A DNA stretch of 64,000 nt from Flavobacterium glaciei (GTDB taxonomy: Bacteria > Bacteroidota > Bacteroidia > Flavobacteriales > Flavobacteriaceae). Location: positions 1 through 64,000 of the forward strand of contig NZ_QQBA01000007.1 in NCBI RefSeq assembly GCF_003350545.1, in the 5' to 3' direction. Below are positions 17,352 through 23,500 of the stretch, one piece after another; position 1 is the first letter of the stretch; the number at the start of each line of letters is the position of its first letter. The notes beneath the pieces were generated by a model. It did not search any database. It was not told the DNA's origin and saw nothing but the letters and a program-made list of their open reading frames with translations. The position numbers and the translations under genes were made by a program.

Positions 17352-17696
17352 TTATTTTCGCTCATATTGACAACAAGTATGAAGTTTATCGTAATCTTCC
17401 TTTAATGCCTTGAAATCATCTGTATCATGTCCTGCTTTTGCAACCGCTTTTTGAATTGTAGGTACATCCGTTTTCTGCTCGTTAACAATCAAGTATAAAG
17501 TGCCACAATCCATATGCCAATCGGCAGATTTTACACCTGAAACGCCTAATGCCGCTTTTTCAACTCTTTTTTTACACATTTCACAATTCCCGCTCACATG
17601 AAACTCAACCTTAGCGTTCTTATTTCTAACCTCTTGAGCCTGAAGTGTAAATCCAAAAAAAGTCATTACCAATACTACTATGATATTTTTCATCAT
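17352..17696 (-). CDS. Secreted heavy-metal-associated (HMA) domain protein
   Basis: A 114-residue protein with a signal peptide (cut near LQAQ, about residue 21). It carries one HMA/ferredoxin-like fold domain with the metal-binding CxxC in GNCEMCKKRVEKA (about 36-39), the ADWHMDC strand and a late CCQYERK that adds two more Cys. It is probably a periplasmic copper or other soft-metal carrier. It starts 15 bases after the TonB receptor stop and is the last gene of a three-gene set with that receptor and a HYC_CC_PP protein. The metal is not proven. Confidence 0.85.
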   Translation of the reverse strand: MMKNIIVVLVMTFFGFTLQAQEVRNKNAKVEFHVSGNCEMCKKRVEKAALGVSGVKSADWHMDCGTLYLIVNEQKTDVPTIQKAVAKAGHDTDDFKALKEDYDKLHTCCQYERK

Positions 17697-17711
17697 TTAA
17701 TTTTTTTAAGA

Positions 17712-19724
17712 TTATTTAATTTTAAAACGTAAACCCGCATAATACATTTGTCCAAAAACTGGACCATAAACTATTGAAGCGTCAAAAGTAGGTCCAAAAG
17801 GATTTTCATTACCTAAGATAACATTAACCTGCTTGTAATTACCAATATTTTCACCGCCAATGTAAACTTCAAAAGTAGAAGAAAAAACTCTAGTAACTTG
17901 TACATTCATCACAGAAAATGAAGGTGAAAATTCAGGTAGTCTGTCTGCTTGAGGATTTGTTGACGTATTCGGTAATTGTTGTTTGCCGAGCCAGTTAATA
18001 GTGTAATCAAATTTCCATTGTTTTCCATTTTCTAAAATATGCGTTTCATATCCTAAATTTCCAAAGAAACGATGTTTAGCCTGCAATGGCCTTTGATAGG
18101 TTCCTGACAAATAATCCGTTTGAATGTCATAATATTTATAGGCTGTTCTCAAATTAAAATTTTTCATCAATTCATAATTGAACTCTACTTGCAAACTATT
18201 CGCATATGATTTTCCTTCTAAGTTGTAAAACAAAACCTGTTGCGGACTTTGCATTACATCGACAACTGCCTGATTTTGAAAATCGGTTCTGTAAAAATCA
18301 AAACCAATATCAGCACTCTTGCCAAATAGCAAAAAACCTTGCATAAAACTCATCCCATAATTCCATGCAATTTCAGGATTCAAACCGTAGATTTTTCCAT
18401 TGGAATCTAAAAATTCAAAAGTTCTTGAACTCGCTAAAAGCTGTTGATTTTCGGCAAAAACGTTAGCGCTACGCTTGCCTCTACCAGCTGAAAATCGCAA
18501 AACACCTTTCTCCCAAGGATTGTATCGCACATGTAATCTAGGCGTAGCAAAAGTGCCCAAACGATTATGATTGTCTATTCTACCGCCCAAAACTACGCTA
18601 AAATTATCCGTGTTATCATAGGTATATTCAAAAAAAGCACCCGTTGAATTATCAATTCTACTGTAATCATTGACATTGACAAACTCACCGTATTTATCAT
18701 ACGTAAAATTCAAACCCGCAGAAAATTTATGTTTTGTATTATTGATAATCGAATTGAAAATCAGGTTCGAATAATAACTTTTTTGTTTGATATTAAATTG
18801 ATTTAATCCAAAATAAGAGTTTTGATCATGACTGTTAAATGCATTTTGAAAACCAATACTTTGATAGGGCATATCTGGAAAAACATAGCCTATTTTAGTA
18901 GAAACATCAAACCGTTCCGTATTGATTTCGGAGCCCCAATAATTAGTTGTTCCCTTGTCTTTATCTGGGTCAAAATTTAATTCTCCTGTTTGCTTTTGAT
19001 CATTTAAATAACGAAAATTGATAAAACTCACCCAGCCTTTTTCGGCATTGGTATATTGCCAACGATTTAAAACATTGACTTGTTTTGCCAAGGGATTGTC
19101 CAGAAACCCATCGTCATTCATGTCGTTTTTTAAAACTCTAGTATTTCCGTGAACAAACAAACTACTACTCCATTTATCAGAAATTTTCTTGTTGAAATGA
19201 GTATTTAATTCAAATCGAGAATCTGTAGAGCCGTATACATTTAGAAAAAATGGAATATCGCTGATTGGCTTTATTAATTCGGTATTAATTTGCCCCGATA
19301 TACTTTCGAAGCCATTAACAACACTTCCTGCGCCTTTAGTAATTTGGATACTTTCAACCCAAGTTCCTGGCGTAAATGACAATCCGTAGGCTTGCGAAGC
19401 ACCACGAACCGAGGGAATGTTTTCCTCGGTAATCATTAAATATGGACTAGTTAATCCTAGCATTTTTATTTGTTTCGTACCGGTCAAAGCATCTGAGAAA
19501 TTGACGTCGATTGAGGGATTTGTTTCGAAACTTTCTGCTAGATTACAACAAGCGGCTTTTAGTAATTCTTTACTTGTTAGGATTGTAGTATTAGCCGTTA
19601 GTCTATATGATTTTTTTAAACTTTTACTGTTTCCTTGAACTTTAATCTCTTGCAAGGTATCTTGCGAGTAAGTATTAAAAGCGCAAAAGAAGAACAATAA
19701 AAATATTGAAATTTGTTTTTGCAT
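17712..19724 (-). CDS. TonB-dependent outer-membrane receptor, probably metal related
   Basis: The 670-residue product has a signal peptide (about 1-21), a TonB box region, a plug domain (about 30-150) and a long beta barrel ending in AGLRFKIK. It lacks the N-terminal carboxypeptidase-like domain of SusC-type receptors. The plug has a paired-Cys motif, AACCNLAESFETNP (Cys59-Cys60), which I recall from a Bacteroidetes subfamily near copper genes. Neighbours are a HYC_CC_PP protein (69 bases upstream) and an HMA protein (15 bases downstream). That context points to uptake of a metal or a metal-binding ligand rather than a sugar. Confidence 0.88.
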   Translation of the reverse strand: MQKQISIFLLFFFCAFNTYSQDTLQEIKVQGNSKSLKKSYRLTANTTILTSKELLKAACCNLAESFETNPSIDVNFSDALTGTKQIKMLGLTSPYLMITEENIPSVRGASQAYGLSFTPGTWVESIQITKGAGSVVNGFESISGQINTELIKPISDIPFFLNVYGSTDSRFELNTHFNKKISDKWSSSLFVHGNTRVLKNDMNDDGFLDNPLAKQVNVLNRWQYTNAEKGWVSFINFRYLNDQKQTGELNFDPDKDKGTTNYWGSEINTERFDVSTKIGYVFPDMPYQSIGFQNAFNSHDQNSYFGLNQFNIKQKSYYSNLIFNSIINNTKHKFSAGLNFTYDKYGEFVNVNDYSRIDNSTGAFFEYTYDNTDNFSVVLGGRIDNHNRLGTFATPRLHVRYNPWEKGVLRFSAGRGKRSANVFAENQQLLASSRTFEFLDSNGKIYGLNPEIAWNYGMSFMQGFLLFGKSADIGFDFYRTDFQNQAVVDVMQSPQQVLFYNLEGKSYANSLQVEFNYELMKNFNLRTAYKYYDIQTDYLSGTYQRPLQAKHRFFGNLGYETHILENGKQWKFDYTINWLGKQQLPNTSTNPQADRLPEFSPSFSVMNVQVTRVFSSTFEVYIGGENIGNYKQVNVILGNENPFGPTFDASIVYGPVFGQMYYAGLRFKIK

Positions 19725-19793
19725 GATTGATTTTTAATGTTAGAAAAATGTAAAACCACAAAAGTGTGATTCAAGTTTTATTAAACATTAAAA

Positions 19794-20195
19794 CTATGCG
19801 TAGAAAATATATTGATGGTATAATTTAAAAAAAGGCGGCCCATTTGAATCGCAATAATAGGAAGTAAACTGACTATTTTTAAAATTTGAGGCAAATGAAA
19901 ATATAGAATTTTTCCAATCCTCTATTAAAAAGATAAAATCCGAATAGACAATAACAATTTTCTGAATTAAGTCATTCGTTTTCTTTTCAAAATTAATCTC
20001 TTTGTTTTTACAACAATGTGATTTTTTCTCAACAAATCCACAACAATCTTTTTCTACATTTTGATTCTGAATAGGAGCTTTAAGAGTAACTGCCGTTATC
20101 TCATTCCCGCAATAACGTATATTAAATGCTAATCCTGTATTTGAGAGCAACAGGAAAAACGCAAGAAGAAGACTAATAGGTCTTTTAAATTTCAT
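19794..20195 (-). CDS. HYC_CC_PP family protein
   Basis: A 133-residue protein with a signal peptide (about 1-23) and the motif set that names this family. These are a first Cys in IRYCGNEI (His of HYC replaced by Arg), Cys pairs in DCCGFVEKKSHCCKNK (about 51-64), and a C-terminal GPPFF segment. The many Cys suggest metal binding at the periplasmic face. It is the first gene of a set with the TonB receptor and HMA protein. The function of the family is not established. Confidence 0.8.
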   Translation of the reverse strand: MKFKRPISLLLAFFLLLSNTGLAFNIRYCGNEITAVTLKAPIQNQNVEKDCCGFVEKKSHCCKNKEINFEKKTNDLIQKIVIVYSDFIFLIEDWKNSIFSFASNFKNSQFTSYYCDSNGPPFFKLYHQYIFYA

Positions 20196-20248: not shown

Positions 20249-21604
20249 CTACAATTCAAATTCTTGCCCCATCAAAGGAACTTTACAATCAAAACCATAT
20301 TTTTCATATACTTTTATTCGGAGTTCATCCAACGGTTCATTTTCGCCATGAACTAAAAACACTTTGGACGGTTTATTTTCTAAATCTGACAACCAATTCA
20401 ATAAGTCTTTTTGATCTCCATGTGCTGACAACCCTCTTATTTCTAAAATTTTGGCTTTTACAGGATAATATTGCCCATGAATTTTAATTTCTTTTGCCCC
20501 TTCCAATAATTTTCTTCCGCGCGTACCTTCAGCTTGATACCCTACAAAAATCACTGTGGTTTGTGGCAATACAATATACTTTTCTAAATAACTTAATACT
20601 CTTCCACCTGTTGCCATCCCGCTTGCTGCTATGACCACTTTAGGCTGTTCGTCAAAAATCATTTCAATTGTTTCTTGATAATCAGATACTAATGAAAACA
20701 TTTTATTCATTTCTGCACATACTTCCAGCGGCAACTTATGCCATTTTATATTACTCGAAAAAATATTCAGAGCATTAATTCCCATAGGCGTATCAACAAT
20801 ATATGGGATATAAGGAATTTTACCTTGTTCTCTTAGCTGCCATAGCAAATACATGATAGTTTGAGCGCGCTCAACAGCAAAACTCGGAATTATAACTGTT
20901 CCACCATTCTCAACGGTATTATTGATAAAAGTTTCAAGTTCTAATTTGGTATCCGTATGAGGATGCAGTCGATCACCATAGGTACTTTCTAGGAAAACAT
21001 AATCAGCTTTTTTTGGCTTGGTAGGTGGATACATTAAAACATCATCATCCCGACCAATGTCACCGGAAAAAACTAATGTTTTATTTTCAAGTGTCAAAGC
21101 AATACTGCTCGCACCTAAAATATGACCAGCGATTGTAAAAACAGCTTCGATCTGGGCGTCTAAAGAAACAGGCTCATTGGTTTTAATTACCTTAAATAGC
21201 GGGAAAACTTTTTCAGCTTGTTCTACCGTATAAAGCGGCTCAGCAATTTGATGTTTAGAGTATTTTCCTTCATTCGCTTTTTTAGCTTCCTCTTCTTGAA
21301 TTTTAGCACTATCAAGAAGAATGAGTTTAGTAATATCTTTTGTAGGACTGGTACAATAAATTTTGCCATCAAAACCCTGATTAACTAATCTTGGCAACCA
21401 ACCACAATGATCTAAATGACCGTGAGTCAGCAAAACAAAGTCAATAGTGGATGGCAAAATAGTTAAAGGCTCCCAATTGAGTTCTCGTAAAGGTTTAACA
21501 CCTTGAAATAGCCCACAATCAATCAAAATCCGAATCCCATTACTTTCAATTAATGTTTTAGAACCGGTAACTGTGCCTGCGCCTCCAATAAATTTAACTT
21601 TCAT
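20249..21604 (-). CDS. Beta-CASP metallo-beta-lactamase RNase (CPSF73-like)
   Basis: The 451-residue product is a full-length MBL-fold protein with a beta-CASP and an RMMBL domain. Motif 2 is THGHLDH (His61, His63, Asp65, His66). The late motifs are SAHGDQKDL and a final VHGE. The beta-CASP part has AASGMATGGRVLSYLE and VGYQAEGTRGRKLL. Relatives act as RNA endo- or 5' exonucleases. The gene begins 37 bases after the stop of an ATP-cone nuclease-like gene on the same strand, so the two are probably co-transcribed. Confidence 0.92.
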   Translation of the reverse strand: MKVKFIGGAGTVTGSKTLIESNGIRILIDCGLFQGVKPLRELNWEPLTILPSTIDFVLLTHGHLDHCGWLPRLVNQGFDGKIYCTSPTKDITKLILLDSAKIQEEEAKKANEGKYSKHQIAEPLYTVEQAEKVFPLFKVIKTNEPVSLDAQIEAVFTIAGHILGASSIALTLENKTLVFSGDIGRDDDVLMYPPTKPKKADYVFLESTYGDRLHPHTDTKLELETFINNTVENGGTVIIPSFAVERAQTIMYLLWQLREQGKIPYIPYIVDTPMGINALNIFSSNIKWHKLPLEVCAEMNKMFSLVSDYQETIEMIFDEQPKVVIAASGMATGGRVLSYLEKYIVLPQTTVIFVGYQAEGTRGRKLLEGAKEIKIHGQYYPVKAKILEIRGLSAHGDQKDLLNWLSDLENKPSKVFLVHGENEPLDELRIKVYEKYGFDCKVPLMGQEFEL

Positions 21605-21641
21605 TTGATTTGAATTTAAAATTAAACAATCTAGTATTGTT

Positions 21642-22472
21642 TTAAATATAACTGCATAACTCTGTTACTTCTTTTAAAACGTTTTTAATCCGATTAGGAC
21701 TCAATCCTATTCTGTTTAAACAATCTGAATTGTTTATTATTTCTTTTGCCAAAATCACATCTAATATCAATAATTTATCTTTTTCGGCGATAGACAAGGT
21801 CGTTAAACACGTTACAGGATAAAGAGAATTTAAATCATTTTTAGTTTTCAAATTGTTATCATCAGGGTAACTCCAACTTAATAAATTCAATCCAGAGCAT
21901 TTAGCAAAAGTTATTGCATCAGCTGTAAACCGATTATTGGTGACAATCCAACATTTAGAGACTATGTCTTTTCTATCAAAAACAGGCTGATTTCTTTCCT
22001 TAATATCATTAAAACGAGACAGAATATACATTGGAACTTTTACATCCGAAGCAACATCTCTACCAGCATGGAACTTACATTCAACCATAGCAATTTGTTC
22101 TTTCTTCTTTACTAATACATCAATTTCATGCATCACACATTTGCCCTGCAAAGTCAAATTTGTTACTGTTTGATACTGTTCTGAAGCAAAAAGACGGGCT
22201 ATATATTTTTCAAAAAAGAAACCTGCAGGACCTAACAAACGTATCGATTCTCTTAAATTATAACGGGCCGCATGAGAATTAGCCGTTTTTTTTAATAAAG
22301 AAAAAGCCATTTTATAAATTTGCTTCGTAGAAATGCCTTTATATAATTGTGCTTTTATAACATGAAGAATGTTGTCGACCACAATAGCACTAGCCCCTGA
22401 TTTTAAGAGTGATTTTTTAAGTTTATCTGAATTGAATTCTACAATATCTCCAGAGTTCTTGATTACCTTCAT
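21642..22472 (-). CDS. ATP-cone domain fused to a restriction-endonuclease-like domain
   Basis: A 276-residue protein. Residues 1-85 or so match an ATP-cone, the nucleotide-sensing module of ribonucleotide reductases and NrdR (VIKNSGDIVEFNSDKLKKSL; later YNLRESIRLLGP). The second half fits an Mrr-like PD-(D/E)XK core: HEIDVLV (Asp118), then MVECKFH (Glu131, Lys133). It probably cuts or binds nucleic acid under nucleotide control; this is inference. It is the first of two genes with the beta-CASP RNase (37-base gap). There is no methyltransferase nearby, so a classical restriction system is unlikely. Confidence 0.8.
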   Translation of the reverse strand: MKVIKNSGDIVEFNSDKLKKSLLKSGASAIVVDNILHVIKAQLYKGISTKQIYKMAFSLLKKTANSHAARYNLRESIRLLGPAGFFFEKYIARLFASEQYQTVTNLTLQGKCVMHEIDVLVKKKEQIAMVECKFHAGRDVASDVKVPMYILSRFNDIKERNQPVFDRKDIVSKCWIVTNNRFTADAITFAKCSGLNLLSWSYPDDNNLKTKNDLNSLYPVTCLTTLSIAEKDKLLILDVILAKEIINNSDCLNRIGLSPNRIKNVLKEVTELCSYI

Positions 22473-22530
22473 AGCTTTATTGTTTTAATAAACAGACACT
22501 TAAATCAACATTAAAGATACGAAAAAAAGA

Positions 22531-22974
22531 CTACTTATTTTGTTTTTGATAATAAAATCCAGGAACGAATAACAAAACAAAAATAGGCTGAATCAAAAAC
22601 CTACGAATATAAAATAGAACCCAATTACTATTTGCGTTCGCAAAGCAAACTATGTAGAAAAAAGCAACAATTAAAATCATGAAGAAAAAATAATACAGGA
22701 CAAATGCAAATTTAACCATCGCTACGTCTTTGAAAAGGATATAAATAATACCCAATGAAATAGACGTATTTAATGTAAAACGAAACAATAGTCCCAAAAA
22801 CAATTGAGCTGTATTAAAACTTGGTAATCTTAGCTTGATAAAATCTTTTTTGAAAAAATCCAAAAAAGGATCATAAAATAATTCATTTTCAAAAGCACGA
22901 ACAAGCACTAACAATACCACCAATAAAAGGAATTGCAGAAATCGAGTTCTGTTATTTAGTATCTTTTGAAGCAT
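22531..22974 (-). CDS. Exosortase F system-associated membrane protein
   Basis: A 147-residue inner-membrane protein with four hydrophobic helices. It matches the small partner always found beside exosortase F in Flavobacteriia: an early RFLQFLLLVVLLVLVRAFE followed by FYDPFLDFFK. Its start overlaps the end of xrtF by 23 bases, so translation is likely coupled. The exact role is unknown. Confidence 0.82.
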   Translation of the reverse strand: MLQKILNNRTRFLQFLLLVVLLVLVRAFENELFYDPFLDFFKKDFIKLRLPSFNTAQLFLGLLFRFTLNTSISLGIIYILFKDVAMVKFAFVLYYFFFMILIVAFFYIVCFANANSNWVLFYIRRFLIQPIFVLLFVPGFYYQKQNK

Positions 22975-23500
22975 ATCTAGAAAAATTTCGAACCCAAATT
23001 AACCACAACATAAAAACTACACCATAAATATACAATGGAAAAAGAACTTCGTGCAGAAATGGCTCATATTTAGGAAAATAAAAAATCAGCGCACTTAAAA
23101 CTGAAATTCTTAAAACATTCAATACATAAATAATTAGGCTTCCTCCTAAAATAAAAAGCAAGGTAGTTTTTAGCTTTCCAGAAAAAGAGACCACAAATGA
23201 AATAAACAAAATAATCACACTAATAGCATTACACCCTTCTACAATTCGGGCAACATACTTAGAATTAAAAAACAACTTTGTATACGGGTGTGTTGTACTT
23301 TCTTCAATATAAGATTGTTGATTAAACAATTGTATAACTTGCTCAGTATTATCACTAACCATTCTAGTAAATGAGTCTATTTTGTTTTCTTCAAAACCAT
23401 TAAGAAATTGTTGATACAAGAACGTCAAAACAATATATGTCAAAAAAAAGGTGCTTAAAAAAAGTAAAAACGGTTTGTAGAGAATAAAATATTTTTTCAA
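22952..23500 (-). CDS. xrtF: Exosortase F (XrtF), membrane cysteine transpeptidase-like
   Basis: Exosortases are integral-membrane Cys proteases thought to cut and transfer proteins with C-terminal sorting signals. The 182-residue product has several hydrophobic helices and the catalytic triad in place: Cys90 in VEGCNAISVIILF, Arg131 in NVLRISVL and His150 in FLHEVLFPLY. The start is TTG at 23500. No in-frame ATG exists before residue 47, and a TAA lies five codons upstream. It pairs with the next gene and is divergent from the GAF gene. No sorting-signal target is seen in this window. Confidence 0.87.
   Translation of the reverse strand: MKKYFILYKPFLLFLSTFFLTYIVLTFLYQQFLNGFEENKIDSFTRMVSDNTEQVIQLFNQQSYIEESTTHPYTKLFFNSKYVARIVEGCNAISVIILFISFVVSFSGKLKTTLLFILGGSLIIYVLNVLRISVLSALIFYFPKYEPFLHEVLFPLYIYGVVFMLWLIWVRNFSRYASKDTK

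Follow-up and report, generated by a model that had tools for sequence, protein, structure and literature searches.

A predicted ATP-cone nuclease paired with a beta-CASP RNase in Flavobacterium glaciei: a candidate module for energy-controlled nucleic-acid turnover

Two adjacent genes of Flavobacterium glaciei encode an ATP-cone domain fused to a PD-(D/E)XK nuclease and a beta-CASP metallo-beta-lactamase predicted to be an RNase, and their pairing exceeds chance and is co-inherited. Because the pair is kept through much of Bacteroidota, usually among stress genes, it looks less like a virus-defence system than like a module that turns over nucleic acids under energy control. The reading that we favour, to which we assign a probability of roughly one half, is that an ATP- or dATP-gated nuclease and a 5'-3' RNase would turn over nucleic acids under energy or oxygen stress, and that ribose salvage would be an optional extension; gating by nucleotides, a shared RNA substrate, and salvage of what is released are inferred here.

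Two predicted enzymes encoded in the window

The window is the 64,000-nucleotide stretch of F. glaciei DNA that was analysed. Within it, the nuclease gene (276 aa, 21642..22472) lies upstream of the beta-CASP gene (451 aa, 20249..21604), both on the minus strand; the first-pass annotation had likewise placed them on one strand, 37 bases apart. The short gap upstream of the nuclease gene (22473..22530, minus strand) contains a TATCTTTA-like box that is conserved in an alignment of 24 Flavobacterium loci and may be the gene's own promoter. Directly upstream, on the same strand, 22531-23500 encodes exosortase F (XrtF) and its associated membrane protein (NCBIfam TIGR04128 and TIGR04127), and the downstream region (17352-20195) carries apparently metal-related genes for a TonB-dependent receptor, a heavy-metal-associated domain protein, and a small Cys-rich protein. 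Both proteins of the pair are intact and under purifying selection, with dN/dS values of 0.04-0.11 for both genes against nine relatives. The earlier observation that neither a methyltransferase nor a toxin gene is near is borne out among the open reading frames at 14-29 kb of the window, and identification as Mrr-type restriction-modification was rejected on the absence of a methyltransferase in that interval and of any known defence context.

ATP-cones are well known from ribonucleotide reductases (RNRs) and NrdR, and those in other proteins sense dATP. The ATP-cone of the nuclease (aa 1-77; 22242..22472, minus strand) scores 29.2-33.4 bits against the PF03477 cut-off of 25.8, and the PD-(D/E)XK domain that follows (about aa 78-217; 21822..22241, minus strand) scores 29.5 bits for Mrr_cat against a cut-off of 21, which confirms the fusion proposed in the first-pass annotation. 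The AF1548-like C-terminal domain (PF22357; 21657..21821, minus strand), with a cut-off of 23.9, reached 27.1 bits in one search and 23.1 bits, just below the cut-off, in another. The nearest solved structure for residues 83-269 is AF1548 (1y88, E 4e-25). In an AlphaFold2 model built from 30 sequences, with a mean pLDDT of 93.6, residues 1-77 match the ATP-cones of NrdR and class I RNR (Z 9-11.5 over both; Z 9.8-11.5 and rmsd 1.3-2.1 Å for NrdR) and residues 80-276 match AF1548 (Z 23.7), while more distant fold matches of the nuclease domain include AspBHI (Z 12.2), MspJI, EndoMS, and Can2/Card1 (Z 9-10). All 118 distinct homologs have E88, E116, D118, E131, and K133; the catalytic Asp/Glu/Lys on which the first-pass proposal depended are thus present in the alignment, as D118/E131/K133, the counterparts of D38/E51/K53 that were proposed to be catalytic in AF1548 (PMC1821046). 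With the predicted D...ExK residues all kept, the nuclease is predicted to be catalytically intact.

The ATP-cone residues K5, G8, K17, and T49 are conserved in relatives and are the same in the class I RNR ATP-cone of the F. glaciei genome itself. The classical KRDG motif reads KNSG in the nuclease, and the ligand preference of this ATP-cone may therefore differ, as the Arg is replaced by Asn. PD-(D/E)XK enzymes mostly cut DNA, which makes RNA as the substrate of the nuclease a guess.

The 451-aa protein is, judged from its motifs and matches, a predicted RNase of the TTHA0252 type. Its Lactamase_B, Beta-Casp, and RMMBL domains all lie well above the Pfam cut-offs, beta-CASP motifs 1-4 and A-C are present, and the residues of the metal and beta-CASP motifs (D29, H61, H63, D65, H66, H161, D182, E206, H395, and H419) are conserved at 99-100% in 125 paired homologs. 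The first-pass annotation had called the protein CPSF73-like; the beta-CASP assignment stands, although TTHA0252 (E 4e-67), which together with type VII Cas14 provides the closest solved structures, is a better match than CPSF73 (E 4e-40). Three other identities were rejected: RNase J (TIGR00649, 11.6 against a cut-off of 400), type VII CRISPR Cas14 (NF045584, 393.6 against 800), and aCPSF1/FttA (TIGR03675, 280 against 580, with a match that spans model positions 176-625 only, where N-terminal KH domains are required). The model of the ligase-associated DNA exonuclease gives 50, far under its cut-off of 325. TTHA0252 itself has 5'-3' exo-RNase activity (PMC4229858).

These assignments bear on whether the pair might instead maintain genome stability, the ATP-cone sensing dATP/ATP and gating a DNase that acts in repair or under replication stress, helped by the metallo-beta-lactamase protein. 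Such a role would suit the resemblance of the PD-(D/E)XK fold to EndoMS and restriction enzymes, and also the dATP sensing of ATP-cones elsewhere; it is nevertheless unlikely, as the partner falls within an RNase subfamily, far from the DNA exonuclease model, and no DNA-repair genes are found nearby.

Co-occurrence and shared inheritance of the two genes

The family sample comprised 149 Flavobacteriaceae genomes, with close to a single genome for each genus, and beta-CASP presence was scored at E up to 1e-30. The nuclease is present in 62 of these genomes and the beta-CASP in 58, all 58 of which also have the nuclease (Fisher p 5e-37, uncorrected for phylogeny). The adjacency that had been noted in the window is kept in relatives, as 64 of the 67 beta-CASP loci in the sample adjoin a nuclease gene on the same strand, with the nuclease upstream in 63. 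The gaps between the two genes are mainly 13-42 bases, except in one subtype, where they are 318-339 bases long and contain an open reading frame of 84 aa. Of 247 genomes sampled across the phylum, 38 have the nuclease, 25 of them with an adjacent beta-CASP, so that about a third of the nuclease-bearing genomes have no linked beta-CASP.

The paired beta-CASPs (52 paired rows and one from a genome with the two genes on different contigs) form one clade with an SH-aLRT support of 98, apart from the widespread unlinked homologs of Bacteroidota and from those of Proteobacteria; both gene trees are quick builds that carry SH-aLRT support only. The main subclades of the nuclease tree are the same as those of the beta-CASP tree, and distances on the two trees correlate with r 0.90, against a maximum of 0.13 in 1000 permutations, a correlation to which shared species history contributes. 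In 11 genomes that have two pairs from different subclades, no partner has been swapped. Neither partner strictly needs the other, as lone copies of the nuclease and nuclease-free proteobacterial operons exist.

Most Flavobacterium carry the pair at a constant chromosomal site immediately downstream of the XrtF pair, and the whole locus is syntenic; in several species, the pair lies intact at another site. F. johnsoniae strain CI04 also has a pair (L078). Flavobacterium-like loci were also seen on metagenome-assembled (MAG) contigs whose titles name Klebsiella pneumoniae, Bifidobacterium breve, and Sphingobacterium thalpophilum (L051, L066, and L090); given the character of the loci, mistitled records or mixed bins are the probable cause. 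The synteny of the locus, together with the missing partner of about a third of the nuclease genes in the phylum sample, would fit an adjacency preserved by operon inertia between functionally unlinked genes, but this explanation is highly improbable, because the pair is kept across many different genomic contexts and shows partner fidelity in the two-pair genomes.

Stress neighbours, salvage genes, and the proposed function

In Flavobacteriaceae other than Flavobacterium, the pair lies in stress islands, and a universal stress protein (Usp) domain lies within 2.7 kb of 24 of 25 checked pairs, which came from genomes hand-picked among those with the pair; the expectation is about 0.03 domains per search window. 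In the subtype with the 84-aa protein, the gene order is Usp, nuclease, 84-aa protein, beta-CASP, phosphorylase, and PRPP synthetase; genes for a P-type ATPase and for dehydrogenases are found close by. The 84-aa protein, encoded between the nuclease and beta-CASP genes of these stress islands (for instance at L125:10747-11001 and L120:9866-10120), has no match in Pfam or PADLOC. In a single stress island of Flavobacterium, the position after the beta-CASP that phosphorylase and PRPP synthetase hold elsewhere is occupied by an AAA_28/deoxynucleoside-kinase-like protein (L130:8077-8622). In Pontibacter and Criblamydia, a four-gene row is found on plasmids: nuclease, beta-CASP, phosphorylase, and PRPP synthetase.

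Each of the 12 AMP-phosphorylase-like genes of the Flavobacteriaceae sample has a paired beta-CASP as its immediate neighbour; a 13th match, 31% identical, is an ordinary relative. In these other genomes, the protein passes TIGR02645 but scores 480-492 against the AMP phosphorylase cut-off of 535, and its nearest solved structure, 4ga5, is named a putative thymidine phosphorylase. The F. glaciei genome has no match to this gene, which means that only the nuclease core is present there, and the archaeal AMP (pentose bisphosphate) pathway was accordingly rejected for this genome. No PRPP synthetase gene adjoins the F. glaciei pair. The missing phosphorylase gene and the lack of adjacent Usp genes at the window both stand against the favoured reading.

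Related operons without the ATP-cone nuclease are found on proteobacterial plasmids, where a beta-CASP gene accompanies phosphorylase and PRPP synthetase genes and/or those for phosphoketolase, acetate kinase, and Usp. Some members of the TIGR00730/LOG family release ribose 5-phosphate from monophosphates, and a gene of this type adjoins the beta-CASP in Aureibacter and in Bradyrhizobium BTAi1 (L188:8481-9167 and L190:5877-6800), where it perhaps replaces the phosphorylase. The small "ATPase" encoded next to the beta-CASP of Methylophaga was also checked for an ATP-cone and has no Pfam match. In Bradyrhizobium diazoefficiens, bll3117-bll3116-bll3115 are induced in microoxia, and bll3115-bll3117 are annotated as an MBL hydrolase, a PRPP synthetase, and a member of the thymidine phosphorylase family (PMC6515984); these genes require FixK2, a dependence that they share with a phosphoketolase and an acetate kinase (PMC9104804). 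In Burkholderia cenocepacia, BCAM0300, an MBL protein of the low-oxygen-activated locus, becomes more abundant in chronic colonisation (PMC6127331). By annotation, bll3115 and BCAM0300 are candidate orthologs of the window's beta-CASP protein.

According to the favoured reading, the two genes would form one functional unit that degrades cellular nucleic acid in a regulated way, with RNA as the likeliest target. The ATP-cone would read the adenine-nucleotide state (ATP versus ADP or dATP) and switch the attached PD-(D/E)XK nuclease, and the ends generated by its cuts would be digested in the 5'-3' direction by the beta-CASP enzyme to nucleoside monophosphates. In the subtype with the phosphorylase, which is not that of F. 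glaciei, the AMP-phosphorylase-like enzyme and the PRPP-synthetase paralogue may turn these monophosphates into nucleobases and ribose phosphates, which would enter salvage or ATP-yielding fermentation. A fuller route from RNA to energy is rather unlikely: digestion of RNA would be started by the ATP-cone nuclease at falling energy charge and continued to monophosphates by the beta-CASP enzyme, and, where present, the AMP-phosphorylase-like enzyme and the PRPP-synthetase paralogue would yield ribose bisphosphate or PRPP that feeds phosphoketolase and acetate kinase to provide ATP in anoxia.

The same enzymes could also control RNA processing or decay in a nucleotide-gated manner, in the maturation of mRNA or stable RNA, with no catabolic purpose and with stress neighbours that reflect co-expression only. 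Disruption of TTHA0252 alters global mRNA levels, chiefly in log phase (PMC4229858), the pair stands alone in Flavobacterium with no salvage genes, and its patchy occurrence suits an accessory regulator. The placement of all 12 phosphorylase genes of the family sample beside the pair and the LOG-type proteins beside two other beta-CASPs, however, point to the processing of monophosphates, and control of RNA processing or decay is a possible but doubtful account.

A role in defence, which the first-pass annotation had offered beside nucleotide-controlled processing, has little support. PADLOC returned only sub-threshold PD-(D/E)XK matches, no defence genes were found among the neighbours at the window, and none of the annotated genes around the pair was CRISPR-associated; a single C5 methyltransferase gene occurs in one related locus (L131). 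No viral relatives were found in phage records or, for close patterns only, in viral contigs. An anti-phage system in which a phage-driven change in ATP or dATP triggers the nuclease and aborts infection would be consistent with the patchy distribution, the two different pairs in some genomes, the two plasmid occurrences, and the likeness of the nuclease fold to the effector domain of Can2/Card1. Those negative searches, the conserved chromosomal locus beside XrtF in Flavobacterium, and the stress and metabolic operons elsewhere argue against such a system, which we regard as quite improbable. Nucleotide-controlled nucleic-acid processing, the other half of the first-pass proposal, remains the best reading.

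If correct, an ATP-cone on a catalytically intact nuclease that is co-inherited with a 5'-3' RNase would link the adenine-nucleotide state directly to nucleic-acid degradation. Taken with the proteobacterial operon induced in microoxia, the phosphorylase and PRPP-synthetase genes beside the pair support a testable idea, namely that stressed bacteria may draw on RNA as a store of ribose, nucleobases, or energy.

Comparison with known systems

No published description of the ATP-cone nuclease/beta-CASP pair, or of an ATP-cone-gated nuclease as such, was found in a search, mostly of non-subscription literature, for ATP-cones with nucleases or metallo-hydrolases. The first-pass view that no function had been described needs qualification, as relatives of the parts have been described, and the pair is a new arrangement built from known parts. 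Proteobacterial relatives of the beta-CASP occur in microoxia-induced operons (PMC6515984, PMC9104804), and the FixK2-activated bll3117-bll3116-bll3115 of B. diazoefficiens resembles the island subtype in its annotated gene content. It differs in that no ATP-cone nuclease has been reported there, and F. glaciei, for its part, has neither the phosphorylase nor a PRPP synthetase beside the pair.

The CARF-PD-(D/E)XK nucleases Can2 and Card1 likewise join a nucleotide-sensing domain, predicted in the case of the pair, to a PD-(D/E)XK effector, but their sensor is a CARF domain rather than an ATP-cone, and no CRISPR-associated gene was seen among the annotated genes around the pair. The ATP-cones of NrdR and class I RNR share the fold of aa 1-77 and the positions of K5, G8, K17, and T49; the window ATP-cone is instead fused to a nuclease, not to a repressor or reductase, and has KNSG in place of KRDG.

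AF1548 of Archaeoglobus fulgidus, a predicted restriction-type endonuclease (PMC1821046; PDB 1y88), shares the PD-(D/E)XK and C-terminal domains and the same D/E/K triad, with about 30% identity in the structural alignment, whereas its crystallised chain has no ATP-cone. TTHA0252 of Thermus thermophilus, an RNase that acts on global mRNA levels (PMC4229858), has a domain set identical to that of the window's beta-CASP protein; it has not been reported with an ATP-cone nuclease, whereas the clade of the window protein travels with one.
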